DNA from: Prosthecobacter dejongeii
GTDB lineage: Bacteria > Verrucomicrobiota > Verrucomicrobiia > Verrucomicrobiales > Verrucomicrobiaceae
NCBI RefSeq assembly: GCF_014203045.1
Contig: NZ_JACHIF010000002.1
Coordinates: 1 to 64,000 of the forward strand
Reading direction: 5' to 3'
Length of the DNA stretch: 64,000 nucleotides
The notes below the pieces were generated by a model. The model was not told where the DNA came from. It saw nothing but the letters and a program-made list of their open reading frames with translations, and did not search any database. Shown piece after piece: positions 31,202 through 44,821 of the stretch. The position numbers and the translations under genes are program-made. Each line of letters begins with the position of its first letter. The stretch's first letter is position 1.

Positions 31202-34200
31202 TTATTGCAGGCGCTTCAGCGCGGCTTCGACATTGCGCTTTAAACCGGCGCTGATTTTGGGCTCTCGACTGAGCTCAGTCAGTAGCTTGCGAGCCTCGTC
31301 CTGACGGCCCAGGCGCTCCAAAAGATCGGTTTTACGCAAGGTGTAGTTGCCCCGTAAGCCTTGGTCAGCGCCAGCCTCTTGGATGGCGAGATCGTAGAGG
31401 GGAAGCCCGTCCTCCTTGCCGTTTTGGGCTAGCAGGTCTCCGGCTTCTGCGGTGGTCCGGCCTTTGCGTGGCAAGCTTTTACCTAAGAGGGGAGCGCTAA
31501 TAGGCAGCTCTTCCAGCGAGATCAGTTTATGGGTATTGACCAGCATGCCGATGAGATTGGGGACACCGGGGCCAGAACTTGGAAACTTAGCTTGAACCCA
31601 GGGATCAGTCATCATTTGAAGAAGAATCTTGTGGCGATCATCGAGTGACATTTTGGGCTTAGGTTTGCCGAAGAAACCGGCGCAGACAAAAAAGGTGTTT
31701 CTTTTCAGAGCCGCCATCTTTAAGGCCTTCGCATCTGCAGGAGTGAGACTTTTTTGCCAGGCAGCGTAGCTTGTGCTGTCGCCCTGCGAAGCGTGCAGCA
31801 TGCTTTTCAACAGGATGCTGGTTCCTAGGACATAGCAGTCTTCATGGCGTGGGGCACAGGCGATGAGTTTGTCGGTAAAGGTGATCACGGCTTGGACATC
31901 GCAGCGCTCACCCTTTGCCCAGTGCCATGCTAGGTAATCGAGAATGGGAGCCGCGAGGTAAGAGAAAGTGTAAGCAAGCACTTCTTCGGAATGGCTCCCT
32001 GAAGCGCTGGCCTGGGCTAGTTTTTCTAATTTAGCGATGAGGTCTGCAGATTCACCTTTTTCCCACAACTTCATGCCCAGACTGACGGCCAGGGGCTTCA
32101 TGCGTTTGAAAGTTTTCCAAGTTTCTCCCAATTCTAAAATGGCCAGGACATCGGCCTTCGCAGCCACCGCATCGTATTGATCTTTCAGTGGCAGATAAGT
32201 CTCATAAATTTCAGCGGTATATTCCAAACAGCGTGCGAGGATAGATTCGTCTGCAAAACGCGTGGATTTCATCTGGGGGACCAGCGCTATCACACGTTTA
32301 TTGCGATCCATAAAACCCGACCATTGGCTAGGTTTGGGTGGGTCTTTGAGAGTCGTGCAGATGAGTTCTCCCAATAGGGCGAGGTCTTGCCTGTCGGCAC
32401 AGGCTGTCTTGAATTTGGGCAACTGTTCGGCCAAAGTCTGGGTGAATTCGACGCCTGTCGCAGGATCATAGAGGAAGGTCTCCCAATAAGTTTCTAACCA
32501 CTGTTTTGCGACTTCATGAGCTCCGTTTGAGACGAGGATCAAAAAGGCATTTGGATCGTCTTCCAATGCTTCATTGGGGTCACTGTGCAGTAGAGTGGTC
32601 GTGGCCTCCTCGTGACCAAGACGTGCGACGATGCCGATCATGGCGCACAGCGCTTCCTCACGCGGGTTGTAAGCTCGATTGCGATTGGTGCTTTCGTTGT
32701 TGCGGCTGTTGCGCGCTAACCAGGCCTCCCATTGTTCATTGGCCGTCTTTTTCCAGACATCGTCTAAAGGTAAACGGCAGTAAGCGCGGGCGAGAGCTGG
32801 GAAATGGAATGTACCGCTGACCGCATGAAACTCTCGGTGTTCTGCTGCTACCAACGCCATGGCTGTGCGCACCACATCAGTATCGGGTCGGCGGAGTTCT
32901 TTACGACAAAGATGGGTGGCGAGGGCGATGCGGATTCGGGGATTGAGTTTCGTATTCAGCATCGTCTGGCGGTAATGTGCCCAGGCGGGGGATGTGCCAC
33001 CGAGTTCTGCCAGTTGCTTTTGCACACCTTCATTCGTGACAGAGCTGTTTTCCGTGCTGAAGAAGATGCGTGCTGCAGCCGCTAATTCTATGCGCAGGGG
33101 GCCGGTATCTCCTGTATCTTCTTTGAGAGCGGCCTTGAGGACTGGGAGGCGTGCACCTGCGGGTAACTTGGCGAAGAATTCATAAAACCCGAGAGCCAGC
33201 AAAGTCGGTGGTGTTTGGCCTAACTCTTTTTGAAGAGTGATTAACATTTCGTCCACAGCTAAGGCTGGGCGTGCAATGCCTCCGGCCTTTTTCCAGGTTT
33301 CTGACAATGTTTGGCCCCAAGTGCCCTCTTCACAGCGACCATCCAGAATCAGCAATCCTGTTTCATCTTCATGGCAGAGTTGCATGGCCAAAGCGAGGGC
33401 TGGAAGGCCAGGTGCGAGGTCGTTAAAATCATCCAACAGTTCGCTGCGGTAGGTCCAGCCCATGGTCCAAGTATCTCCGCGCCAGCCGCTGCTGGTAGCC
33501 TTGGCCTCGATCATTTTGGCGCCCTGAAGAAAGAGGGCTTTGGCTTTGGCTCGATCCTTGTTGACTAGGTCATGCATCAAGCGCGGGATCTGATCTTCAA
33601 ACCCATCATCGGTGACATTAAGGTCGCTCAATTTAGTGGCTTTCAGAATGCTATCCGCTTGGCTTAGTTGGGCTGAATTTTCCACACTTAACAGAGGGGC
33701 GAGTGCCTTGAGCAATTCTGGATCTGCCGTCTCGGGAGTTTTAAGACTGGGGATGTTGGACTTGAAAAGAGCAGTGAGGGTGGCCACCCTTTCAGGGCGC
33801 ACGGACTTCAGTTGCTCCGCTCGTTTTTTGGCCACGTTGCTGAGTGCCGCAGAGGGGTCTTCCTTGAGCATGCCTTCCACCATATCCGTGCCAAAAGTGC
33901 GTGGCTGCCGCTTAGCCATAGCCTCCCGCAGTTCTGCTAAAATGGTAGGCTTGCCACGAACACTTTGGATAATCTCGGTGAGGGGATGGTTTGCCCGACT
34001 GCTTTGAAGGGTCATGAAAGTATCCACTTCGGAGAAAGCATGGGTGGCTTCCAGAAAGGCCAGCAAATCAGCACTGTTACGTGTAACGTTGCTGCGCATT
34101 TGGTAAATGTTGTTAGCCAACCAGGCTTCGTTCTTGGTGAGGCCTATCATGCCAGCAATTTTCAGTCCCAGAGAGAGGGCGCCTTCTTCGTCTAATATTT

Positions 34201-37200
34201 GCTGGAGGGTTTGTCCCACATTGTAGGCTGCTCGGTCATTGCTGTTACCTCCTCGGCTAAACCAGTTGGTGACCCAAGTATTCATGCGCTTTTCCCAGCC
34301 TGTTTCAGAGCCAAGAGAGGCGGTCAGCCATTGTTTGAGAAAGTCTTCTATCGGGGCTTCCGGGGCCTGCCTTTGGCGCATCGCCAAGAAGCTGGGAAGG
34401 TAATAATACGTGGTGTAGCCATTGGAGGAAGTCTTCTGACTCGCAAGAACGGCGTTATCCAAGACGGTGCCGGGTAATTGACGTTCAACGCAACGATCAA
34501 CCAGCCAGATCAGTTGGCGTTGTGGACCGTATGAACTGTTTGAGTTTGGCCATGCTGTTTTTGCATAAGTGTTCGCCAGTGAAGAAAACTCTTCAGCGGA
34601 TGCTTCTCTCAAGCGGGACTGAAGTCGGTAGATCGCTGATTCTGTCTTGCCACGAGCTTGATCCGCTAAAGGCAGGATCTCTTTTTCGATGCGTTCAGAA
34701 TCCCCTTCTTTCCAGGCTCGCCAAAGGAGGAACTCGACTGGCGTTGGATTCCAGTGGGCGGTGACTTCCCGCGAATAACCATAACGCGAGCGAATGGGGG
34801 CTGGTGGGCGACTCAGTGCCGCCGCTTCCTTCAAAATAGCCTGTGCTCGCTGAGAGAGATCGTCATAAACGACTTTCAATTCACCTTTTTCCTGAAGCCT
34901 TGCGCAAGCATACCAACTGAACCCCGTATCCGCCAGGGAAGGATGTTTCATGAGAGCTCGGCAGAGGCGTTGATGAACTTCTAGAAGTCGTTTTAATTTT
35001 GGGGATTCGGCGTCATCTGCATCTGCACTTGCGCCACGGCGTGTCGAACGCGCATGGATGTAAGGCAGCGCATTCCTGCCATTGCACACGGTGTTAGCGA
35101 GGATGGACGGAAGACTGCCTGCCCAGTCGAGTGTATCAGCCAAGTTTTTTTGTGCAGCGATTTCGTCCGCGGCGAGTTCTAGCCTTTGCACGATGGTTTC
35201 TGTCAAGCTCAGTCGAGATTCCAGCTCCATGTCATAAGAGTTGCTCAATAGGTTCGTGAGTTCATTTCCAAAACCTTGACCAAGAGACTTGACCGACATC
35301 CTTTGCAGCAGTTCACCTGCTTTTTTCGGATCCGTTTTGGCGCTGATGATCATGAGCCTAACTAAAGATTCTTCTTCCTTGGGGTTGGTTTCCAGCAGAT
35401 TTTCGTAGATAGCTTCGGCTTTAGCTGTCTCATCCAGCATTTCCAACAAGCCTGCAAATTCGCGTTTTTTGTTAGGGTGAGCATTCTCTCCTGGATTGAT
35501 TTTTTCAATCATCATGGCCTGTGCGTCTTTGGCTTTATGCAAATTGATCAGCTTCTTTGCTTCGGACTTCGCGTAACTCACGTTCCCATTTAGGAAGTTG
35601 CTCTGCAGCAGGGCTTGGAGTTGTTTTAAGGTCTCACGCATGGCCGCTTCTTGATTGCCCTGTGAGATCAATTTCTGGATCTGACTGCTGTTGCTAGAGG
35701 AGTATGAGACGCTACGTGTGGACGATGCTGGGGCGGGTGTCATCGCCGCGATGCGGGCCAACTGCGCGGCTTCTTCTGTCATTTTCAGGCTCGTCATTAC
35801 ACCGATCAGTTCATCTCGCTGCTGAGGAGAAAGCCTACCCGTGCGAAGTCTTCGCACGGATTGCACGCCCTGTTCCAACTGATCTGGAGTGGGCGAAGAG
35901 ACGAGTTGTAGAGATTTCAGCAAAGCAGCATCCACGTCTTCACGCAGCGACTTATCCATCGGCGAAGCAACGGCCTGGATCAGGAGCTTGACCGCCCTCA
36001 CGTGGTCATCCCTTCGCTGAGCAAAGGCCGCCGCTTGAAGTAACTCGGCCTGACTAGCATCTGGGGAGTCTGCACGTGTTGCTAGCTCTTTTTCAATCTG
36101 GGCAAAGTCATCGGCCTTGTAGGCCAGCGCCATCCTCAGCAGAGGGGGCTTTACCTCGGAGAGGAAGGGCTTGATCTCTATAAAGGCTAAGTCCGGCTGC
36201 CCGTCTTCGGTAGGATTGGGGTTGTAGATGTCTTTGCGGTAAAACCACAGAGCTAAATGGCTGGGGAAAGCAACCGCCACAGGGAAGGGGAGCGGCTCAA
36301 GGAGCGTCTGGTGAGAGTTGCCAAACTGGGCCATCGTGCTTTTGACCGCACTATTATGTTTGAGCCCATCGCCTTCAAAAAGTCGGATTTCTTCTTCCAA
36401 TAAAACGATCAGCTCTTTCCAACCTCCCGAGGCTACCAAGGCATTGGCCACATAAGCAAAGGGCATCACGCGTGAGGCATCTACTGGGTGAGCTTTGAGG
36501 ATCGCTACGAGTAGTTTTTGAAATCGGTGCTTCTGGTTATCCGTGAGAGCTGCAGGAGTGTCGGACGGGTTGATGCGCTGGCCACCCCCTAGAAGTTGGC
36601 TGAACGGGTAAAGGCAATCTATAGGGGCATCTGGGCGCTTTTCATAGACTTCCAAAAGTTCATCCATCCACTTGCTGCCTAGTTCTGGCTGATTACGCAA
36701 AGCCACAAGGGCAGCAGAGAAGGCAATGTTTGGGCTTTTGGCACCGAAGGTTTGATACACTCGCTGGATCGCTTCAGGTGTGAGTTCGCTGGCATTGCGT
36801 GTCGCGTCATAGGCGAGCAAGGTGGGATCCCAGCCTGACTTTTCTGTGGCACCTTCCGCTGTTTTGATATTCAGGCGAGTGATGTCAATTTGTAGGTGCT
36901 GAAGTTGCTTCGTATTTGGCATGCCCGCAGCCGCAGCTTTCTGCCAAAGCTCCGCTGTTTGGGCCGCATCTAACGATTGGCTCAGCATGATCAAATGATG
37001 CGCGGCGAGGGAAGGCAATTCCTCCGCCGTGCTAGGCAGGCGCACGACCCCCGAGCTACTGCGCACATTGTAGCGTTTGACGTATTGATGGTAGTAGCTC
37101 TGGTAAACTCCAGGACCCATGAGGTTCATGAAGGTCTTAAAATCTGACGGCAGATTTTCTTCAGCAGCCTTCTGCATGCGTAAATAAATGGCTGTGAGCG

Positions 37201-40144
37201 GGTTGGTGTTCGCCGATGCTTTTTTGATTTCGGGTAGCTCTTCCTTGAGTTGCATCAGGTTCAAAAAGGCCTGGATTGCTTCAGGCGTTTGGCCGTTTTC
37301 TTCCAGAGCTACGGCTTTGAAATAAGCGAGCCGGTAGTCTTTGGGATGCGCTAGACTCAGAGGTTCTAAAAACTCTTTCAGTCGTGCCCAGTCTCCTTTT
37401 GCCGCCATCGCATCAGCCATGCGAAGGGCATCTTTGGGATCCATTTGGCTGCCGCCGGCGATTTCAAAGAGCATCCGATAACCGGCATTCTCATCGCCGT
37501 ATGTGATGTGGACGCTGGCCATTTGCTGGCGACTGCGATTGCTGGTATCCAGAGAGGCTGCTTTTTCCAAGGTCCGTAGGGATTGCTGCCACTGCCCACT
37601 CTCTTCCTCTGCACGGGCTAGTTGGAGGAGGAGGCCCACGTCCCGAGGTTGCAGGCGTGAGGCTTCGGTGAGGGCCTGCCGATATTCGTTTTCATTTTGG
37701 CCGACGCGTTGAATTTCAGCCAGCGCCATCCAGGCCTGAGGATCTTCCCGATTCGCACGCTGGCGTTCTTTGAAGAGTTCGAGGATGCGGCTGAGTTCTC
37801 CCCTTGAGTAGGCTGACTGCGCTAGAGTGGTGACCCAGCGTTTTTTTTCTTCTGGGGATTCGGCAGTCTCATAAAAGCGTAAGTAAATGCGCTGTGCTTC
37901 CGCCGCCTGTCCGTTGACGTTAAGCATAGCGGCTAGAGCCACACTGAGAGCTTCTTCATCTTCAAACTTGCGAACAGCCGTGCGTAGCACCTTGACGGCC
38001 TCCGTGGTTTTACCAGTGTTGCCCAGAATTTGTGCTTCGATCAACCACGGTTGAGAAGCGGTGGGCGAAATTGCCTTCCAGTCGCTGATTCTGGCGAGAG
38101 CCTTTTCAGGATCGCCTGAGCGGTTGTGGAAGTCCACCACACGTTGGATATGGGCAGATGTGCGGCCCTCTGGTAAGGACAGTAACTTTTCCGCTTCTAA
38201 GGCTGCCCGAGGCCAGTCCTGGCGTTTTTCGAGCAGCCGTACAAGTCGCCCTTGCGCAGTAAGTTTATCTTCATTTGACGAAGAACGCAAAGTTTGTTCG
38301 GCTGCTTCTGTTGCACCTAAATTTTCTTGCAAGGCTGAAAGAAGTGCGCGTTCTTGGATGGTAAGATTTTTCTTGTCGGTCAGTTTGCTGACGGTGTTTT
38401 GGATGGCAGCGGCTTGTGTCATTAAGTCCGTAGCTTGACGGATGGCATCATCCAACTGGCCACTTTCTTGAGCTAATCGCACCCGGTCCAGCGCCCATGG
38501 AACGGCCTCGGTAAGTTGCTGGAGGCGCAGTTGGGCAGCGTCTTGACCTTCTTTAACGGCACTGTCTTTAGCCGTTAGAGTTGCTGCGATGAGGGCCGTT
38601 AAGAAGCGGTCATTTTGCCCCCAAGTTTTTTGATGCGCATGGAGCACTTCACGTGCGGTGTTCGATTCCTGCCGGGTCGTCAAAGCTTGTGCAACAGCTA
38701 GGAGTTGATCCAGATCCTGCGTATTGGCCAGGCCACGCCAGAGGGTGAGTGCAGGCTCTTTCTCACCCGTCCGGTGTAGGTAGTGGGCTTGAGCATCCTT
38801 GGCGGTTGGGCTTTCAGGAAAAGCTTTCACGAGCGTTTCGTAGGCTGCCTTGGTCTCAGGCTTTAGATCCCAACTTTCTAGCAAGCGTGCCACGCGCAGG
38901 TGCTCGTATTCACCGATGGCAGGTTGGGCCAGATAGGCAGCGAGGGCTGCTTTAGCCGAAGGTATGTCGCCTTGCTTTTGCTGTAGGCTAGCAAGACGTA
39001 AATGCAGTTCTGCATCCGTGGGATTTTGTTCTTGGAGCAGCTTCGTCTGAGCAATGGCCTCGGAGTATTTTTGTTGGCGTGTGAGAAGGTCCAGATAGGT
39101 TTCTCGCAGTTCGCGCTGGCCGGGAGTGCGCTGGAGCAATTCCTGGTAGGTGGCGAGGGCTTTGTCTCCGGCTCCAGTTTCCGCTTGGAGGCGGGCTCGC
39201 TGCTGAATGAGTCCCGTTCGTTGGGGGTGCTCCTTCGCTAGTTTTTCCAAATGGTCCAATAGACCTGCGAGGTCACCCCCGCGTCGGAAAGCGGTCTCGA
39301 TCTGGGATAAGACTTCTCTCTCCACCCAGGTATCTTGACCTGACTGGGCAAGAGCTTCACTATAGACCTTTAGGGCCTCTTTCTGCTTGGAACTCCGCAT
39401 GAACATGTCTCCTAGCAGGAGACGTCGTGTGACCTTGACCGAGGGGTCGCGGGTCTTGTCGATGAGGCTGGACGTTAAGTTAGCCGCGTCTTGGAAAAGG
39501 GCTTCGTCTAGTTGCAGTTCGATGACTTCTTCCGTAAGATCCTCGTCTTCAGGACGAGCTGCTAACAAACTTTGCCAAGTTTTCAAGGCTTCCTCCGTGC
39601 GTCCAACACGAAGCAATAAACGGCCACGCATCTTGCCAATGTCCAGTGCAAGTTCCGCAGACGGTTTTTGGGCTGAGGCTTGATCGAGTGACTTGAGCGC
39701 GGGCTCGAAGTCTAAAAGTCGTGCCTCGAGTTTTGCACGCTGTAACCAGGCGCTGGCGTTTTGGTTATCTTTGGTTAGGGCCTCTGTGTATGCTTTGAGC
39801 GCGTCTTGTTCGCGACCTTCATATTCGTGAAAGAGCGCCAGCACCAGGAGGTCTGCCGCAGTGCTACTGCGTTGCTTGAGAAAACTGGCGAGAGAGTCTG
39901 AGGTGCCTGTCTCTAACCAGGCACCGATGAATCGGTCTAGCACCAGCCCAGTTTGAGGGCGCTTGAGCAGCATGTCATGGTAACGGGTGGCTTGCTCAGA
40001 CTGCGCAAGCACGCGTGTCTCTAGAGTGCCAAACATACCCGTCAGACTGAGCCCAATGATTTTTAGCCAAAAGCGCATCTTGGCAGGGGGGAGGGGCTGG
40101 TGATTGACCTTCAACGGTTGAGAGGTGCGGATCCGGGATGACAT
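31202..40144 (-). CDS. Giant exported TPR-repeat protein (2,980 residues)
   Basis: The largest gene of the window. A signal peptide fits a start at the ATG at 40078 (MRFWLKIIGLSLTGMFGTLETRVLAQ); the outer ATG at 40144 adds 22 residues. Residues from about 50 to 1,000 are clear TPR units (for example YEGREQDALKAYTEALTKDNQNASAWLQRAKLEARLLDFEPALKSL). The rest is a mostly helical solenoid with scattered TPR-like pairs, and a closing TPR block (LLAQNGKEDGLPLYDLAIQEAG). No enzymatic motif or transmembrane helix beyond the signal was seen, so it is probably a periplasmic or surface scaffold. It precedes the cysteine-rich and moxR genes by 140 nt on the same strand. Similar giant TPR proteins are known next to moxR/VWA loci. 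Function unknown. Confidence 0.85.
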   Translation of the reverse strand: MSSRIRTSQPLKVNHQPLPPAKMRFWLKIIGLSLTGMFGTLETRVLAQSEQATRYHDMLLKRPQTGLVLDRFIGAWLETGTSDSLASFLKQRSSTAADLLVLALFHEYEGREQDALKAYTEALTKDNQNASAWLQRAKLEARLLDFEPALKSLDQASAQKPSAELALDIGKMRGRLLLRVGRTEEALKTWQSLLAARPEDEDLTEEVIELQLDEALFQDAANLTSSLIDKTRDPSVKVTRRLLLGDMFMRSSKQKEALKVYSEALAQSGQDTWVEREVLSQIETAFRRGGDLAGLLDHLEKLAKEHPQRTGLIQQRARLQAETGAGDKALATYQELLQRTPGQRELRETYLDLLTRQQKYSEAIAQTKLLQEQNPTDAELHLRLASLQQKQGDIPSAKAALAAYLAQPAIGEYEHLRVARLLESWDLKPETKAAYETLVKAFPESPTAKDAQAHYLHRTGEKEPALTLWRGLANTQDLDQLLAVAQALTTRQESNTAREVLHAHQKTWGQNDRFLTALIAATLTAKDSAVKEGQDAAQLRLQQLTEAVPWALDRVRLAQESGQLDDAIRQATDLMTQAAAIQNTVSKLTDKKNLTIQERALLSALQENLGATEAAEQTLRSSSNEDKLTAQGRLVRLLEKRQDWPRAALEAEKLLSLPEGRTSAHIQRVVDFHNRSGDPEKALARISDWKAISPTASQPWLIEAQILGNTGKTTEAVKVLRTAVRKFEDEEALSVALAAMLNVNGQAAEAQRIYLRFYETAESPEEKKRWVTTLAQSAYSRGELSRILELFKERQRANREDPQAWMALAEIQRVGQNENEYRQALTEASRLQPRDVGLLLQLARAEEESGQWQQSLRTLEKAASLDTSNRSRQQMASVHITYGDENAGYRMLFEIAGGSQMDPKDALRMADAMAAKGDWARLKEFLEPLSLAHPKDYRLAYFKAVALEENGQTPEAIQAFLNLMQLKEELPEIKKASANTNPLTAIYLRMQKAAEENLPSDFKTFMNLMGPGVYQSYYHQYVKRYNVRSSSGVVRLPSTAEELPSLAAHHLIMLSQSLDAAQTAELWQKAAAAGMPNTKQLQHLQIDITRLNIKTAEGATEKSGWDPTLLAYDATRNASELTPEAIQRVYQTFGAKSPNIAFSAALVALRNQPELGSKWMDELLEVYEKRPDAPIDCLYPFSQLLGGGQRINPSDTPAALTDNQKHRFQKLLVAILKAHPVDASRVMPFAYVANALVASGGWKELIVLLEEEIRLFEGDGLKHNSAVKSTMAQFGNSHQTLLEPLPFPVAVAFPSHLALWFYRKDIYNPNPTEDGQPDLAFIEIKPFLSEVKPPLLRMALAYKADDFAQIEKELATRADSPDASQAELLQAAAFAQRRDDHVRAVKLLIQAVASPMDKSLREDVDAALLKSLQLVSSPTPDQLEQGVQSVRRLRTGRLSPQQRDELIGVMTSLKMTEEAAQLARIAAMTPAPASSTRSVSYSSSNSSQIQKLISQGNQEAAMRETLKQLQALLQSNFLNGNVSYAKSEAKKLINLHKAKDAQAMMIEKINPGENAHPNKKREFAGLLEMLDETAKAEAIYENLLETNPKEEESLVRLMIISAKTDPKKAGELLQRMSVKSLGQGFGNELTNLLSNSYDMELESRLSLTETIVQRLELAADEIAAQKNLADTLDWAGSLPSILANTVCNGRNALPYIHARSTRRGASADADDAESPKLKRLLEVHQRLCRALMKHPSLADTGFSWYACARLQEKGELKVVYDDLSQRAQAILKEAAALSRPPAPIRSRYGYSREVTAHWNPTPVEFLLWRAWKEGDSERIEKEILPLADQARGKTESAIYRLQSRLREASAEEFSSLANTYAKTAWPNSNSSYGPQRQLIWLVDRCVERQLPGTVLDNAVLASQKTSSNGYTTYYYLPSFLAMRQRQAPEAPIEDFLKQWLTASLGSETGWEKRMNTWVTNWFSRGGNSNDRAAYNVGQTLQQILDEEGALSLGLKIAGMIGLTKNEAWLANNIYQMRSNVTRNSADLLAFLEATHAFSEVDTFMTLQSSRANHPLTEIIQSVRGKPTILAELREAMAKRQPRTFGTDMVEGMLKEDPSAALSNVAKKRAEQLKSVRPERVATLTALFKSNIPSLKTPETADPELLKALAPLLSVENSAQLSQADSILKATKLSDLNVTDDGFEDQIPRLMHDLVNKDRAKAKALFLQGAKMIEAKATSSGWRGDTWTMGWTYRSELLDDFNDLAPGLPALALAMQLCHEDETGLLILDGRCEEGTWGQTLSETWKKAGGIARPALAVDEMLITLQKELGQTPPTLLALGFYEFFAKLPAGARLPVLKAALKEDTGDTGPLRIELAAAARIFFSTENSSVTNEGVQKQLAELGGTSPAWAHYRQTMLNTKLNPRIRIALATHLCRKELRRPDTDVVRTAMALVAAEHREFHAVSGTFHFPALARAYCRLPLDDVWKKTANEQWEAWLARNSRNNESTNRNRAYNPREEALCAMIGIVARLGHEEATTTLLHSDPNEALEDDPNAFLILVSNGAHEVAKQWLETYWETFLYDPATGVEFTQTLAEQLPKFKTACADRQDLALLGELICTTLKDPPKPSQWSGFMDRNKRVIALVPQMKSTRFADESILARCLEYTAEIYETYLPLKDQYDAVAAKADVLAILELGETWKTFKRMKPLAVSLGMKLWEKGESADLIAKLEKLAQASASGSHSEEVLAYTFSYLAAPILDYLAWHWAKGERCDVQAVITFTDKLIACAPRHEDCYVLGTSILLKSMLHASQGDSTSYAAWQKSLTPADAKALKMAALKRNTFFVCAGFFGKPKPKMSLDDRHKILLQMMTDPWVQAKFPSSGPGVPNLIGMLVNTHKLISLEELPISAPLLGKSLPRKGRTTAEAGDLLAQNGKEDGLPLYDLAIQEAGADQGLRGNYTLRKTDLLERLGRQDEARKLLTELSREPKISAGLKRNVEAALKRLQ

Positions 40145-40441: not shown

Positions 40442-41176
40442 ATGGCTAGACTTTTTTGCTCTCTCAGGTTTTTTGCTTTTGCCATGTTGTTGATGGTGAG
40501 TGTGGCGGAAGCTGGTGCGGTACCAGGGCTCATCATTCCTCTGCATGAAGTGAAAGTGGGCACGCCTGTGGAAGGCTTGGTCAAAGAGGTCCTCGTGAGC
40601 GAAGGGGACAGTGTGGAATCTGGACAGGTCGTGGTCCAGCTAACGGATGATCTGGAAAAGCTGGATCTTGAGCGAGCTGAGAAGGTACTGGAGAAGGCGA
40701 AGTTTGACCATGAAGCGGCGCAAAAACTTTTGAAGGAAAACATCAGCACGCGTGAGGAGGCTTTACGAAAAAGCATCGAGCATGATCTGGCGCGGATTCA
40801 GCGTGATGCTGCTCGGGTGCGATTAGAACAGAAGACTCTGCGTGCTCCCCTGCAAGGGGTGGTGGTAAATCGCGGGAAGGAACCTGGTGAGGCCGTACAA
40901 CTGCACGAGGTGTTGTTAGAGATCGTGCACATTCGGCAGGTTGAGGCTCAGTTTTATTTAGAGCCTGCGCAGGCTCTAAAAGTTAAGAAGGGTGAAAAGC
41001 GGAAACTGCGAGTTTCTTCGTTACCCGAGTCTGCGGAAATCCTCGGAGAGGTCGTTTTTCTGGACCCCCGAATGGACGCGGAGAGTGGGCTTTATCGGGT
41101 AAAGTTGCGTGTGGATAATGCGGATCTACGGCTGAAGGCAGGCATGAGGGTGGAGGCCGATCTAGCCCAGCCTTGA
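40442..41176 (+). CDS. HlyD-like periplasmic adaptor protein
   Basis: 244 residues. A signal peptide (to about residue 25, VAEAGA) is followed by a biotinyl-lipoyl-like half (VGTPVEGLVKEVLVSEGDSVESGQVVVQL), a short alpha-hairpin (about 72-125), the second lipoyl half (LRAPLQGVVVNRGKEPGEAV) and a beta-barrel (about 165-240). This is the usual order of membrane-fusion proteins of tripartite efflux or type I secretion systems. It is small for the class because the hairpin is short. No inner-membrane pump or TolC homologue is in the window. Its partner is probably the next gene, 2 nt away, which carries a second lipoyl/barrel module. TGA at 41174-41176 ends it. Confidence 0.85.
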   Translation: MARLFCSLRFFAFAMLLMVSVAEAGAVPGLIIPLHEVKVGTPVEGLVKEVLVSEGDSVESGQVVVQLTDDLEKLDLERAEKVLEKAKFDHEAAQKLLKENISTREEALRKSIEHDLARIQRDAARVRLEQKTLRAPLQGVVVNRGKEPGEAVQLHEVLLEIVHIRQVEAQFYLEPAQALKVKKGEKRKLRVSSLPESAEILGEVVFLDPRMDAESGLYRVKLRVDNADLRLKAGMRVEADLAQP

Positions 41177-41178
41177 CC

Positions 41179-43380
41179 ATGTCACACGCCATAGCCATCA
41201 CTGAAGTCACGACAGAGTCTTCCTCGTCTGTGGAGGCAATCGTGCCTTCGGCACTGAGGTCAGATTTAGCGATCAGCCACCAGCTTTTTGAAGGTCGTGC
41301 CTTTGCGATTATTAAAGATCCTTTGTCTTTGAAATACTTTCGGTTACCAGCAGAGGACTATGCTCTAGCAGCCCTCTTTGATGGAGTGCGCAGTGTGAAG
41401 GAAATTCGTGAAGCCTTCCTTCAGGCTTATCCTCACGCTGGATTGGTAGATGGGAGTCCGGCCATAGCCGCCCGTATCGTGAGCTTTGCCAACGAATTGC
41501 TCGCCGCAGGTTTTTTGGAGGCGACGGCAGCGGGTGCGCGGAGGCAAATCGAACTGAAAAAGCTCCGTCATAAACCGCTGACGCCGTGGGGACTTTTTAT
41601 GAAGGCTCTCTTCCTGAAGCTGCCTTTGTGGGATCCGGATGCCTTGTTGATCCGGCTGGAACGGCCGCTGCGATGGCTGTGGTCGTGGTCAGGTTTTGTC
41701 ATAAGCCTCCTGATCTTGATGGCAGGCACGGTGGTTTTCGCGGTGAATTTTCCGCGCATTGCTCCCGCTCTGAATGATTTCCTGACTTTGCCAAATCTAG
41801 CGCTGGTGTGGGTGCTGACCATCGTGGTGAAAATCATTCACGAATTTGGTCATGGGCTGACCTGCAAGCACTATGGCGGGGAAGTGCATGAGATGGGTGC
41901 AATGGTCATCGTCTTCAGTCCCTTCCTGTATGCCGACGTGACGGATAGTTACCTGTTTCCCAAAAAGCGGCATCGCATCTTAGTGGCAGCAGCGGGTATT
42001 TACATTGAGTTGATCCTCGCAGCCATCGCCACCTTGCTATGGGCTGTTTCGCAGCCAGGGCCGACTCAGCAGTTATTGTTTAACTTGATGCTGATCACCA
42101 GTGTCTGGACGATTCTTTTCAATGCGAATCCGCTGATGAAATTCGATGGTTATTACATGCTGACGGATATTCTCGGGGTGCCGAATCTGCGTGTGAAAGC
42201 GCAGATGTGCGTAGGGGATCTTTTCCGGCGTTGGATCTTTGGTGGGTGCACGCCACCTCAGGTGGAGCGACTTTTGCCTCGGCGAAATCGTGTCTGGTTT
42301 GTTTTATACAGCCTCGCGGCGCAACTCTATCTGTTGCAGATTACCTTGGGGATCGCGATGATTTTTCACTATCTGCTCGATCCCTATGGACTCGGGTGGT
42401 TGGGCGATGCCATTGGTGCGGGGGCTGTGGTCTCGATGTTGATTGTTCCTGTGAGTGCGTTTTTTAAAGGTCATTTGGCGAAGTCAGCCGCTATCGTAGG
42501 CGGTTGGCGGCGGCCCGTGGGCATCATTCTGGGGGGCGTGCTCATCCTCATGATGTTGATGTTATTGCCCTGGCAAATCAAGGTGGAGCGACCTGCTGTT
42601 TTACGGCCCGTACAAGTCGGATGGGTGCGGGCAGAGGTGCCTGGGCGTATCTTGAGGGTGCACGTAAAGACTGGGCAGCGCGTGGAGAAGGATGCTGCGA
42701 TGGCGGTGTTGGAGAATCTTCGACTGACAGGAGATGTGGAAACTGCAAGTCTGGCCGTGGAAAAAGCGAGACGACAGGTGGATCTGACCTTAGGCGCTGA
42801 TGCACCAGCCTATCATCAGCAAGCTCAAGCGATGCTGGCGAGTGCTGAGGTGGAACTGCGGGAAGCTCGTCGCTTGGCGGAGAAATTGATCCTTCGTGCC
42901 CCCCTTTCGGGAGTGGTGTTGACGCCTGATTTAGAGCGACTCACTGCGGGGAGCTTGCGGCCGGGAGACGCCTTGTGTGAGGTCGCCCCTTTTAGCCCGG
43001 TGCAAATCTACATTCCCCTGAATGAACGACAGGCGCGGCACATAAGCCCCGGACAAAGAGTGGAGTTAAGAGTGAGTGCCCAGCCTAACCGAACCTATGT
43101 GGGGGAGGTGAAGGAAGACCTGAAAACGCCGCCTAATGCAGAGTTGCCACCGAATCTCATCGCCACTCTTGGCGGGGATGTCGCCGCACAGCCGGATGCA
43201 GAGGGACGGTTGAAACCTTTGGAGGTAACCTATGGCATTTTGGTTCAGCTAACCAATGAAGATGAAACTCTGCGGCCGGGAATGACAGGCACAGTGCGAA
43301 TCCATGGAGATAAGGTCCAGGTCTGGCAAATACTGTGGATGAAGATGCTGGACTTTGTGAGTCTGGACTATCGTTTGTGA
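41179..43380 (+). CDS. PqqD-like/M50 zinc protease/HlyD-like fusion membrane protein
   Basis: 733 residues from the ATG at 41179 (an in-frame TTG at 41173 is also possible). The N-terminal 110 residues resemble a PqqD-like peptide-binding domain (DPLSLKYFRLPAEDYALAALFDGVRSVKEIREAF). A site-2-protease (M50) membrane domain follows with H221-E222-F-G-H225 and the second metal motif NPLMKFDGYYMLTD, so its zinc site looks intact. From about 460 a transmembrane helix and a HlyD-type lipoyl and hairpin module (VPGRILRVHVKTGQRVEKDAAM, LRAPLSGVVLTPDLERLTAGSLRPGDAL) occupy the periplasm. Fusions of this type are known in Planctomycetota/Verrucomicrobiota but have no assigned substrate. It could process and export a peptide with the preceding adaptor. 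Confidence 0.85.
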   Translation: MSHAIAITEVTTESSSSVEAIVPSALRSDLAISHQLFEGRAFAIIKDPLSLKYFRLPAEDYALAALFDGVRSVKEIREAFLQAYPHAGLVDGSPAIAARIVSFANELLAAGFLEATAAGARRQIELKKLRHKPLTPWGLFMKALFLKLPLWDPDALLIRLERPLRWLWSWSGFVISLLILMAGTVVFAVNFPRIAPALNDFLTLPNLALVWVLTIVVKIIHEFGHGLTCKHYGGEVHEMGAMVIVFSPFLYADVTDSYLFPKKRHRILVAAAGIYIELILAAIATLLWAVSQPGPTQQLLFNLMLITSVWTILFNANPLMKFDGYYMLTDILGVPNLRVKAQMCVGDLFRRWIFGGCTPPQVERLLPRRNRVWFVLYSLAAQLYLLQITLGIAMIFHYLLDPYGLGWLGDAIGAGAVVSMLIVPVSAFFKGHLAKSAAIVGGWRRPVGIILGGVLILMMLMLLPWQIKVERPAVLRPVQVGWVRAEVPGRILRVHVKTGQRVEKDAAMAVLENLRLTGDVETASLAVEKARRQVDLTLGADAPAYHQQAQAMLASAEVELREARRLAEKLILRAPLSGVVLTPDLERLTAGSLRPGDALCEVAPFSPVQIYIPLNERQARHISPGQRVELRVSAQPNRTYVGEVKEDLKTPPNAELPPNLIATLGGDVAAQPDAEGRLKPLEVTYGILVQLTNEDETLRPGMTGTVRIHGDKVQVWQILWMKMLDFVSLDYRL

Positions 43381-43393
43381 CTCGCTGATGAAT

Positions 43394-44821
43394 CTAAAGC
43401 TGCCGCAGGATTTCCTGCTGCCGTTGGTCTTCTTCCGTCAGAGCCTTCGTAGGTATGGCGGCATAAGCTCGCAGTGCGAGGGCAGGCTGGCCTTCTTGAA
43501 TGTAGGCCTGAATCAGTCTTCGCTGACCTGAGATGTCTCCTGGGAATCGGTGCAAAAACTCCTGCCAAAGAATGGCCGTGGAGGCATTGTTCTGATGAGT
43601 GACAGCAGCCAGTGTCGCCGTGAAATGCAGCTCGCGATTGTGAGGCGAAAGACGCAGTTTTGTGGCCAGGACTTTTTTGGCGATGGCATCGGTTTGGGCC
43701 AGTTGAAGAAAGGTGAGTTGCATTTCTGGCCGTTCCAGAGCAAGCGCTAAGGCTTGTTCCGCCTGAGCTTTCAAGGCTGAAGTCGTGGCGAGTGCACACA
43801 AGCGGGGCAGGGCATGAGGAACCCGTGCCGCAGCCAGGCGGAGATAGGATTGAAAAGCGAAAGCGCCTGGCTGTTCGTCATCACAAATGGCGGCATGTGC
43901 CGAAAGCCAGCGTAAGTAGTCGGCATTCACCTGAGATTGAAAGGCGAGTTTGCTCGCCTCCACTACGTGCTCCGGGAAGCTCTGCAAATGACGCTCTAAA
44001 ATGGGAAGGAAGCGTGACCCCTGATGAGCGCGCCTGGCTGCTAGAAAGGTCCGGTCCAGGGCTCGTTCGGGGTAGGGGGCTTTCCCAGTGAGGTGACTGA
44101 GTTGCAGGGATAAGGCCTCGGCAGTGAGATCTGCATCCAGCATCAGGCTCAGTTCCAGGTCACGGGCTTCTTCAAGTGCTGAATCCGGGCCATCCACGTT
44201 TCGTTGAATCCAAATTTGGAGTGCTTTTAATGCGGGCGCTGGATGGTTTCCTCGGCGGCAGGCTTGTGCCAGCGTTTGCAGGGTTTCCCAGTTCGCGGAG
44301 GGGAGTTCACAGGCACGTCCTAGAATGGTGGTGGCATCCGCGGAATCTCCCTGTGCGAGGGCTTTGCGTGCCAAGGCCTGAAGGGCTTCGAGTCGGGCTT
44401 CATCACGAAGGCGATCTCCAGAGGCTGCGATCATTAAATGGGCTTCCATGAGATTCATGGGGCGTGCGTGGCCTAACAAGGTCTGCAATAAGGCCTCTCC
44501 CCATTCAGGGCCTAGCTTTGAGATGGGGGCTTGTTGCACCGTGAGTTGGCGCACTTGAGAGATGGCGGGTAGATTGACCCAGTCTGAAAGCGCTTGGAGT
44601 TGATCCTCCGGCAGTCGCATCAGCCGCATCAGCGCCGGCATGGCGGTGTCTTTCGGGGCCTTGGCCAGATACGCAGCGATCTTTTCCTGACGTTCTTGAG
44701 ACGTGGATTCTTCGGCAACGACGTTCTTGTTAGAGGGCGGTGCGAGCCGCAACACCCAGACCGCCACTAGAGCGGTGTAAAGAAGCAGGAGCAGTCCAGC
44801 AGAGCGGCGGGTGGCTTTCAT
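43394..44821 (-). CDS. TPR-type protein with N-terminal membrane anchor, co-transcribed with the PelA-like gene
   Basis: 475 residues. One N-terminal helix (about residues 9-27, GLLLLLYTALVAVWVL) anchors an otherwise periplasmic helical-repeat protein. The repeats are degenerate TPR units (ALQALARKALAQGDSADATTILGRACELPSANWETLQTLAQACRRGNHPAPALKALQIW) and end with a better unit (RRLIQAYIQEGQPALALRAYAAI). It lies 20 nt downstream of the PelA-like gene. PelB of the Pel exopolysaccharide system also begins with a membrane helix and many TPRs that bind PelA, but the PelB outer-membrane barrel is absent here. A PelB-TPR-like role is an inference from position and layout, not from sequence identity. 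Confidence 0.7.
   Translation of the reverse strand: MKATRRSAGLLLLLYTALVAVWVLRLAPPSNKNVVAEESTSQERQEKIAAYLAKAPKDTAMPALMRLMRLPEDQLQALSDWVNLPAISQVRQLTVQQAPISKLGPEWGEALLQTLLGHARPMNLMEAHLMIAASGDRLRDEARLEALQALARKALAQGDSADATTILGRACELPSANWETLQTLAQACRRGNHPAPALKALQIWIQRNVDGPDSALEEARDLELSLMLDADLTAEALSLQLSHLTGKAPYPERALDRTFLAARRAHQGSRFLPILERHLQSFPEHVVEASKLAFQSQVNADYLRWLSAHAAICDDEQPGAFAFQSYLRLAAARVPHALPRLCALATTSALKAQAEQALALALERPEMQLTFLQLAQTDAIAKKVLATKLRLSPHNRELHFTATLAAVTHQNNASTAILWQEFLHRFPGDISGQRRLIQAYIQEGQPALALRAYAAIPTKALTEEDQRQQEILRQL

Follow-up and report, generated by a model that had tools for sequence, protein, structure and literature searches.

Adjacent genes for a HlyD-type adaptor and a PqqD-like/M50/HlyD fusion protein as candidate parts of a dispersed export machine for large proteins

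Two adjacent genes of Prosthecobacter dejongeii encode a periplasmic adaptor and a membrane protein in which a PqqD-like domain, a site-2 protease and a second adaptor part are fused. The question raised by this pair, located in the 64-kb stretch of DNA analysed here (the window), is what such proteins might recognise, cut and export with no ABC transporter in the two-gene pair. The features concerned are the following:

40442–41176, + strand: RND/HlyD-type periplasmic adaptor, 244 aa, upstream gene of the pair (TIGR01730, PF16576, PF13437)
41179–43380, + strand: PqqD/RRE-M50-HlyD fusion membrane protein, 733 aa from ATG 41179 or 735 aa from TTG 41173
41248–41526, + strand: PqqD-like/RRE domain by predicted fold, approximately residues 26–118 from the TTG (VIA fold match; PF05402 across the family)
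41620–42492, + strand: M50 site-2 protease-like membrane core, approximately residues 150–440 (NF041824, sub-threshold PF02163, helices of the predicted model)
41839–41853, + strand: HEFGH zinc motif, residues 223–227 (sequence reading; invariance in aligned rows)
42145–42147, + strand: D325 of the NPLxxxDG motif (unchanged in all 36 aligned rows)
42568–43320, + strand: periplasmic HlyD/MacA-like part, residues 466–716 (PF16576; match of the predicted model to MacA)

Profile searches uphold the sequence-only reading of the pair as a HlyD-like adaptor followed by a PqqD-like/M50/HlyD fusion; both genes are real and the domain observation is confirmed. The adaptor, whose N-terminus resembles a signal peptide by eye, scores 131.7 bits against TIGR01730 (RND_mfp), exceeding the curated cut-off of 94.9, and 66.4 bits against HlyD_D23 (PF16576) in the Pfam search. 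The latter model gives 57.8 bits on the fusion protein, and residues 444–722 of the predicted model of this protein match MacA (9qgy) with a VIA Z of 17.4. The fusion frame is open from TTG 41173 and its stop ends at 43380; the ATG at 41179 agrees with the H221/E222 numbering used previously, the same residues being H223/E224 when counted from the TTG. Peptidase_M50 (PF02163) reaches 20.0 bits, under its cut-off of 27.2, and the best NCBIfam match is daptide_HExxH (NF041824; residues 43–428, E 2e-56, 191.6 bits against a cut-off of 300), the YydH/LiaK epipeptide protease also matching at 2e-10. Many helices are seen in the predicted model, from which the limits of the M50 membrane core were set by eye. 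The M50/site-2 protease signature is present as HEFGH with a downstream NPLMKFDG (NPxxxxD), and the protease is rightly called intact: H223, E224, H227 and D325, the last presumably the third zinc ligand from its role in S2P proteins, are invariant in 20 of 20 rows of one alignment and 36 of 36 of a second. Orthologues with 64–82% identity occur in seven other genomes of the genus (56 relatives searched).

Concerning the N-terminal domain, the HMM comparison supports the PqqD-like call for the family and is weak for the window protein alone: PF05402 matches 23 of the 28 members scanned at E≤10, the window protein included, and a plasmid homologue attains 24.1 bits (L266), above the cut-off of 23.4, but the window protein gives a weak 15.0 bits. 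The call also withstands structural comparison, the predicted fold matching by VIA TbiB1 with its leader peptide (5v1u; Z 10.5, 84 residues, rmsd 2.5) and 6jx3, also a leader-bound RRE (Z 10.4). On the basis of this predicted fold the domain belongs to the PqqD-like/RRE group.

Within the window, OEP, SecA and GAF models find no match. The earlier statement that there is no TolC therefore holds for the window but not for the genome, in which a TolC gene (OEP, 139.6 bits) adjoins that of a GAF-HlyD protein (GAF 52.5 bits plus HlyD; L064:8800–10746) at 239.7–243.3 kb of contig C1 (L064:7151–10746). The parts are thus dispersed, with the pair at 40 kb of contig C2, OEP and GAF-HlyD at 240 kb of C1, and the sole DUF3467 gene of the genome at 962 kb of C1. 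We attribute the lack of a pump in the window to this dispersal, TolC and GAF-HlyD being encoded elsewhere and a SecA-like ATPase being encoded within the locus in many relatives. In six of eight window-type genomes OEP lies beside GAF-HlyD and away from the M50 pair; the two exceptions are a locus without OEP (L068) and one cut by a contig end (L071). A second, short SecA was not found in the genome, which has a single SecA (1104-aa frame); one match each is seen in G236, G018, G247, G033, G010, G005, G023 (partial), G009, G016 and G028, and none in G034. No DUF3467 match was seen in either G010 or G023. A module of secondary SecA, M50-HlyD, GAF-HlyD, HlyD and sometimes TolC was described in 2015 (Kamneva, Poudel, Ward; PMC4452313); in the accessible part of that paper the broader role of the locus is termed “completely unknown” and no cargo is named. 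Genes MexAM1_META1p2399-2402 of Methylorubrum extorquens AM1 are among those it lists, and the proteins of the pair fall in the family of the module's membrane component. Because the second short SecA is absent, we place the system of the window as a SecA-less relative rather than as a member of this module; its clade is a SecA-less, dispersed variant.

The distribution of these genes was surveyed in 288 Verrucomicrobiota genomes. M50-HlyD is present in 61, GAF-HlyD in 25, every one inside the 61, and DUF3467 in seven, each within the 25; 36 of the 61 have neither GAF-HlyD nor LEPR-XLL at E≤1e-3. Among 80 loci, most of them planctomycete and many short, GAF-HlyD is found in 52, OEP in 9 and SecA in 5 (36, 6 and 4 of the 48 loci of at least 15 kb), and a LEPR-like start lies nearby in only two or three; the separate HlyD-type gene akin to the adaptor forms one cluster, present in 55 of 80 related loci. 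DUF3467 was considered as a strict replacement of SecA and rejected, since both co-occur in three genomes (G235, G238, G265) and in plasmid loci, H6, H8, H3 and H11 among others. Its possible role as a SecB-like chaperone gained no support from structural comparison: Foldseek gave nothing at E≤0.001 and SecB is not among the 50 structural matches listed; the best second-look matches are COMM domains (Z 5.1), possibly reflecting just a common arrangement.

The cargo question leads to the LEPR-XLL giants (NF012209). At E≤1e-3 this signature occurs in 19 of the 288 genomes: 18 of the 25 with GAF-HlyD, none of the 36 with M50 only, and one (G168, with a LEPR match but no module) of the 227 without M50. 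The association with the module gives a Fisher value of 5e-22, which ignores kinship, and 10 of 29 LEPR matches are no more than 10 kb away from the module, against 0.22 expected. In same-genus loci of the SecA type the adjoining proteins begin MEPRILLSG, LEPRILLSA or MESRILLSG. On alphaproteobacterial plasmids, 12 of the 13 best records show a large frame immediately upstream of the module and codirectional with it, and the tag is present on all ten of the giants whose start was read, only three of which NCBI names as LEPR-XLL. These giants are probably the cargo of the SecA-bearing relatives. In the sister branch (L050, L051) repeat proteins starting LEEKIVPAG adjoin OEP in the same cluster. 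The window’s own genome has no NF012209 match at E≤0.05, and LEPR-XLL at E≤1e-3 is absent from the window-type genomes G000 (this one), G236, G018 and G247, the best value in G018 being 0.0063 on a 294-aa frame; the tag of this clade may have diverged from LEPR-XLL. A scan of 2.15 Mb, about 36% of this genome, for a large protein bearing a tag of this sort at its N-terminus found none. Its repeat proteins were rejected as cargo, most starts being ordinary and signal-peptide-like by eye (12 of the 14 large frames rich in G/S/T/N/A, listed from 1.75 Mb), as was the giant TPR protein at 31202–40144, whose syntenic place in close relatives (L043–L045) is taken by other genes.

The RRE domain is a module familiar from peptide antibiotics, and the pair could be pictured, as proposed earlier, as a RiPP-type unit, with a short precursor bound by the PqqD domain, cut at the M50 site and exported by the adaptors. 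The daptide and epipeptide protease matches and the RRE-like predicted fold are in keeping with such a unit; the daptide model, however, stops well short of its 300 bits, the neighbours of the pair are a TPR protein and a 475-aa protein without any Pfam family over its cut-off, and a module of the same family accompanies giant proteins. No precursor is seen beside the pair: of 15 flanking frames of 20–70 aa tested, no upstream one matches the nine closest loci, and the three with matches in these loci overlap the end of gene 43394–44821 or run antisense to it. We regard a RiPP-type unit as unlikely.

Slightly less improbable is a suggestion found in the accessible part of PMC4452313, where an M50 protein stands in for the membrane part of an ABC transporter; the protein would then be mainly a channel with an idle protease site. 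The many helices of the predicted model and the SecA-like ATPase adjoining the M50 gene in the SecA branch would suit a channel, but the full invariance of the four protease-site residues argues against idleness, and both roles are compatible in one protein. A set of adaptors serving the efflux of small molecules or metals, using a pump borrowed from elsewhere and regulated by the protease, seems the most doubtful of these proposals. The adaptor does attain the RND_mfp cut-off, and the genome has RND-like clusters (L072 and L074, judged by size and gene order, with proteins of roughly 1040 aa), but these already carry HlyD- and OEP-like genes of their own, and the partners found with the M50-HlyD genes are GAF-HlyD and DUF3467.

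We favour, with a probability of about 0.6, a reading in which the pair supplies the inner-membrane and adaptor components of an export machine whose parts are dispersed and which is related to the “secondary SecA/type I-like” module. The PqqD/RRE domain would bind a short sorting tag at the N-terminus of a large protein, the tag being LEPR-XLL in the branch with SecA and perhaps a LEExIVPAG-like sequence in that of the window; the M50 site would cleave the tag at the membrane, and the fused HlyD part, the separate HlyD, GAF-HlyD and TolC would lead the chain outward. We infer tag binding, cleavage and export; what the data show is homology, a conserved protease site, a predicted fold of RRE type, partner genes elsewhere in this genome and the association of the module with LEPR-XLL giants. 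The previously proposed sequence of recognising, processing and passing on is thereby kept, but not its peptide cargo, the module sitting beside very large proteins. A short SecA-like ATPase probably powers export in the relatives; the window clade, without it, would rely on another driving force, such as the housekeeping SecA, or on none at this step.

There is, in our estimate, an even chance that these loci represent a distinct secretion system, unnamed in the literature searched, which would carry proteins from thousands up to about 20,000 residues long through both membranes. Its N-terminal LEPR-XLL tag would serve in place of a signal peptide, recognised by an RRE to which an intramembrane protease and HlyD are joined; a short SecA would drive one branch, and the SecA-less, DUF3467-associated branch of the window would use a diverged tag. 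If true, a locus without known role would gain its cargo, an address tag and a mechanism open to testing, some of the longest bacterial proteins could have an exit route, and the leader recognition by RREs that is familiar for small peptides would be tied to the export of giant proteins, the SecA-less dispersed form in the window raising the question of the driving force. In the open-access papers searched, no earlier work was found that connects secretion with LEPR-XLL, DUF3467 or PqqD-M50-HlyD, and PMC4452313 alone bears on the module; a LEPR-XLL/RTX giant is mentioned in a Vibrio in the accessible part of PMC10868602, and those of PMC13274458 and PMC12502724 hold nothing on the module.

As far as its accessible text goes, the polymorphic-toxin PVC-SS (PMC3482391) is an unrelated system. 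With HlyD-TolC and MacAB-TolC the proteins share HlyD/MacA-like adaptor folds, and the genome has an OEP gene; unlike type I secretion, which has an ABC transporter with its adaptor, and tripartite efflux, the pair has neither ABC nor RND pump and its protease is fused to an adaptor. The daptide protease MpaP, from what is accessible of PMC10036551, shares the N-terminal RRE/PqqD-like domain fused to a site-2 protease, whereas the window protein remains under the NF041824 cut-off, has a HlyD part and shows no daptide context in its flanks. The daptide leader that MpaP cuts off carries an ELExMEAP motif, which by eye resembles LExLEPR. The LEPR-XLL giants, probable cargo in the SecA-bearing relatives, have no model match in this genome. 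A close likeness is with the secondary SecA_DEAD/T1SS-related locus, as far as the available text describes it: unlike that locus, this genome lacks the short second SecA, has its parts on distant loci instead of one and has DUF3467 co-occurring, but the M50-HlyD protein, GAF-HlyD, the HlyD adaptor and OEP are kinds common to both.

The sequence-only reading had described two adjacent genes, an adaptor and a PqqD/M50/HlyD fusion, and had interpreted them as a possible RiPP-type unit for peptide processing and export. The two genes, together with two others of the window, are:

40442–41176, (+): RND/HlyD-type adaptor by profile match, first gene of the pair 40442–43380
41179–43380, (+): fusion in which an M50 core with the motif HEFGH follows a PqqD-like domain and precedes a periplasmic part resembling MacA, 733 aa from the ATG at 41179 or 735 aa from the TTG at 41173
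31202–40144, (-): 2980-aa TPR protein, transcribed away from the pair; other genes occupy this place in the close relatives' loci L043–L045
47642–49501, (+): ORF of 619 aa, presumably resembling a fusion of a sugar kinase with a MurQ-like etherase

The fusion gene begins directly after the stop of the adaptor, and opposite-strand genes flank the pair on both sides. Profile matches, the HEFGH motif and the predicted model of the fusion protein (mean pLDDT 83.5) confirm that the two-gene arrangement is real, and the zinc site of the M50 core is invariant in 36 of 36 aligned rows. By sequence the PqqD assignment is weak in the window protein, which scores 15.0 bits against a cut-off of 23.4, but 23 of 28 family members give a match to the profile at E ≤ 10; under structural comparison it holds, residues 26–118 of the predicted structure aligning with leader-bound RRE proteins with Z scores of 10.5 and 10.4. 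The RiPP interpretation of the pair is not supported.

The search covered 56 relatives, 35 of them from the genus. Close orthologues of the fusion protein (the window type) are encoded in 8 of the 35 genomes including that of P. dejongeii, at 64–100% identity. The chromosomal neighbourhood is common to four of these genomes and not found in the other four. G016 and G028 encode a relative at 39% identity, and two genomes from a later draw of Verrucomicrobiota (G236 and G247) give scores like those of the window type. A distant relative, about 30% identical, is present in six further genomes of the genus (G001, G002, G004, G020, G027 and G030), each of which also has a short second SecA. In the loci of the first four, the distant relative stands alongside a SecA-like gene and TolC, with a small HlyD in three of the four loci and the start of a large protein at the end of each stretch. 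According to a tree of 55 proteins, the window type forms a single clade (support 100/99) to which G016/G028 are sister (99/95), and the SecA-linked clade of the genus is separate from it. The SecA-linked loci correspond to the locus reported in 2015 (PMC4452313), which the passages devoted to it describe as containing a secondary SecA_DEAD, M50-HlyD, GAF-HlyD, HlyD and sometimes OEP, without an ABC transporter; the authors call its broader role unknown and suggest that SecA is the ATPase and the M50 protein the membrane pore.

The P. dejongeii genome contains further components of this module:

L064:7151–10746 (C1:239.7–243.3 kb): OEP gene (139.6 bits) adjoining a GAF-HlyD gene (GAF 52.5 bits)
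G000:C1:962316–962537 (L075): sole DUF3467 gene of the genome

OEP adjoins GAF-HlyD in six of the eight window-type genomes, the exceptions being L068, with GAF-HlyD without OEP, and L071, cut by a contig end. G028 (L051) and G016 (L050) each have OEP, GAF-HlyD, DUF3467 and the M50 pair together in one cluster. Of the 10 genus genomes that encode the window-type protein or the one at 39% identity, 8 gave a DUF3467 match, the exceptions being G010 and G023; the remaining 25 genomes of the genus gave none. No second SecA was detected in the P. dejongeii genome, which has one SecA match only, as has each of ten further window-type or 39% genomes (partial in G023); the incomplete genome G034 gave no match. 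Because OEP/GAF-HlyD and DUF3467 lie elsewhere and SecA is single, the window pair is placed in a dispersed, SecA-less branch. DUF3467 is also a frequent module neighbour in planctomycete loci and plasmids; a planctomycete homologue is predicted to fold into three strands plus one long helix, an arrangement that is weakly COMM-like (Z 5.1).

Proteins beside the SecA loci L057, L058, L059 and L062 start with MEPRILLSG, LEPRILLSA or MESRILLSG, and that of L058 (2310 aa within the stretch) passes the cut-off of the NCBIfam LEPR-XLL model NF012209 (24.9 against 17 bits). Among 288 Verrucomicrobiota genomes, M50-HlyD occurs in 61, GAF-HlyD in 25, every one within the 61, and DUF3467 in seven, all within the 25. 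At E ≤ 1e-3, a threshold chosen after the list was seen, LEPR-XLL is found in 19 genomes spread over 9 families, 18 of them with GAF-HlyD; the corresponding counts are 0 of the 36 genomes with M50-HlyD only and 1 of the 227 without M50. Fisher's test of co-occurrence with the module over the 288 genomes gives 5e-22, kinship being ignored, and at a relaxed E ≤ 0.05 the 25 GAF-HlyD genomes include 21 of the 28 with LEPR-XLL. The seven GAF-HlyD genomes without LEPR-XLL at E ≤ 1e-3 are four of the window type, G148, G135 and G238. A second short SecA was counted in 19 genomes, of which 17 have LEPR-XLL; this count leaves out G229 and G289, the second match of the latter covering 45 profile positions only. 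Of the 29 LEPR-XLL matches in the 18 genomes, 10 are no more than 10 kb from the module, where uniform placing would predict 0.22. Motif-bearing open frames reach 20,466 aa. The sole exception at E ≤ 1e-3 is a match in G168 (C151:46295–46330, E 9.6e-4), in a 636-aa frame, where the module is absent. In the 36 genomes that have M50-HlyD but, at the thresholds applied, neither GAF-HlyD nor LEPR-XLL (e.g. G091, G060 and G086, in which no second SecA was found), the protein perhaps represents a different system.

Relatives of the SecA-type M50 protein were recovered from 72 of 72,556 plasmid records, and gene order was read from the best 13 of the 72. In twelve of these 13 the module is immediately preceded, in the same orientation, by a large frame of which the stretch contains 2,158–4,368 aa; H4, the thirteenth, starts at the edge of its record. 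SecA-like frames are present in 12 and DUF3467 in 8 of the 13; the Thalassospira marina record has no SecA-like frame, and its adaptor is without a GAF match. H3 shows the full row giant, DUF3467, GAF-HlyD, M50-HlyD, SecA, HlyD, TolC, and most other records a subset of it. All 10 plasmid giants whose starts were read carry the tag, e.g. HFEALEPRLLLSAD or LETLEPRYLLSAD (H2 and H5 stand outside this count), in H10 just ahead of the annotated start. The giant of H9 is apparently broken, its tagged start and module-side part lying in separate frames across the origin of the record:

L288:1453–11871 and L267:1–12714: giant of CP081100.1, apparently broken, tag in a 3,472-aa frame upstream

The NCBI annotation of H6, H13 and H9 reads "LEPR-XLL domain-containing protein". 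M50-HlyD relatives occur on plasmids of Escherichia (18 records) and of Citrobacter (8); those listed cover about 64% of the query and come from plasmids of some 69 kb upwards.

The P. dejongeii genome itself gave no match to NF012209, and in 2.15 Mb (~36%) of it no large protein showed a comparable N-terminal tag. A repeat protein (1,144 or 877 aa) with the start LVELLEEKIVPAG / LIETLEEKIVPAG adjoins OEP inside the same cluster at the sister loci L050 and L051, which makes a diverged tag plausible for the window pair. Several large repeat proteins with signal-peptide-like starts and a PEP...RRR sorting-type tail were observed in P. dejongeii (L215, L216, L226, L239 and L242). Within 10 kb, the 80 public loci, mainly planctomycete and many of them short, rarely contain SecA (5), OEP (9) or LEPR-like starts (two or three); their usual neighbours are a separate HlyD (55) and GAF-HlyD (52), with DUF3467 in at least 15.

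Co-occurrence and gene order show that the module is associated with tagged giants; that it binds them, cuts them and exports them is inferred. The PqqD/RRE domain would hold the tag and the M50 site would cut it, whereupon the fused HlyD, HlyD, GAF-HlyD and TolC would hand the chain outward, SecA acting as the motor in systems having one. A cargo and an address tag are proposed here for an orphan secretion module; a published link between the module and LEPR-XLL cargo or tag was not found in the literature searched, mostly open-access papers. The window pair is a relative of this module, differing from the locus of PMC4452313 in being SecA-less and dispersed in the genome. The daptide protease, likewise a fusion of RRE and site-2 protease, is homologous to the M50-HlyD protein and is said, in the part of PMC10036551 that concerns it, to remove a leader with the motif ELExMEAP, the start of which is similar, by eye, to that of the tag LExLEPRxLLSAD.
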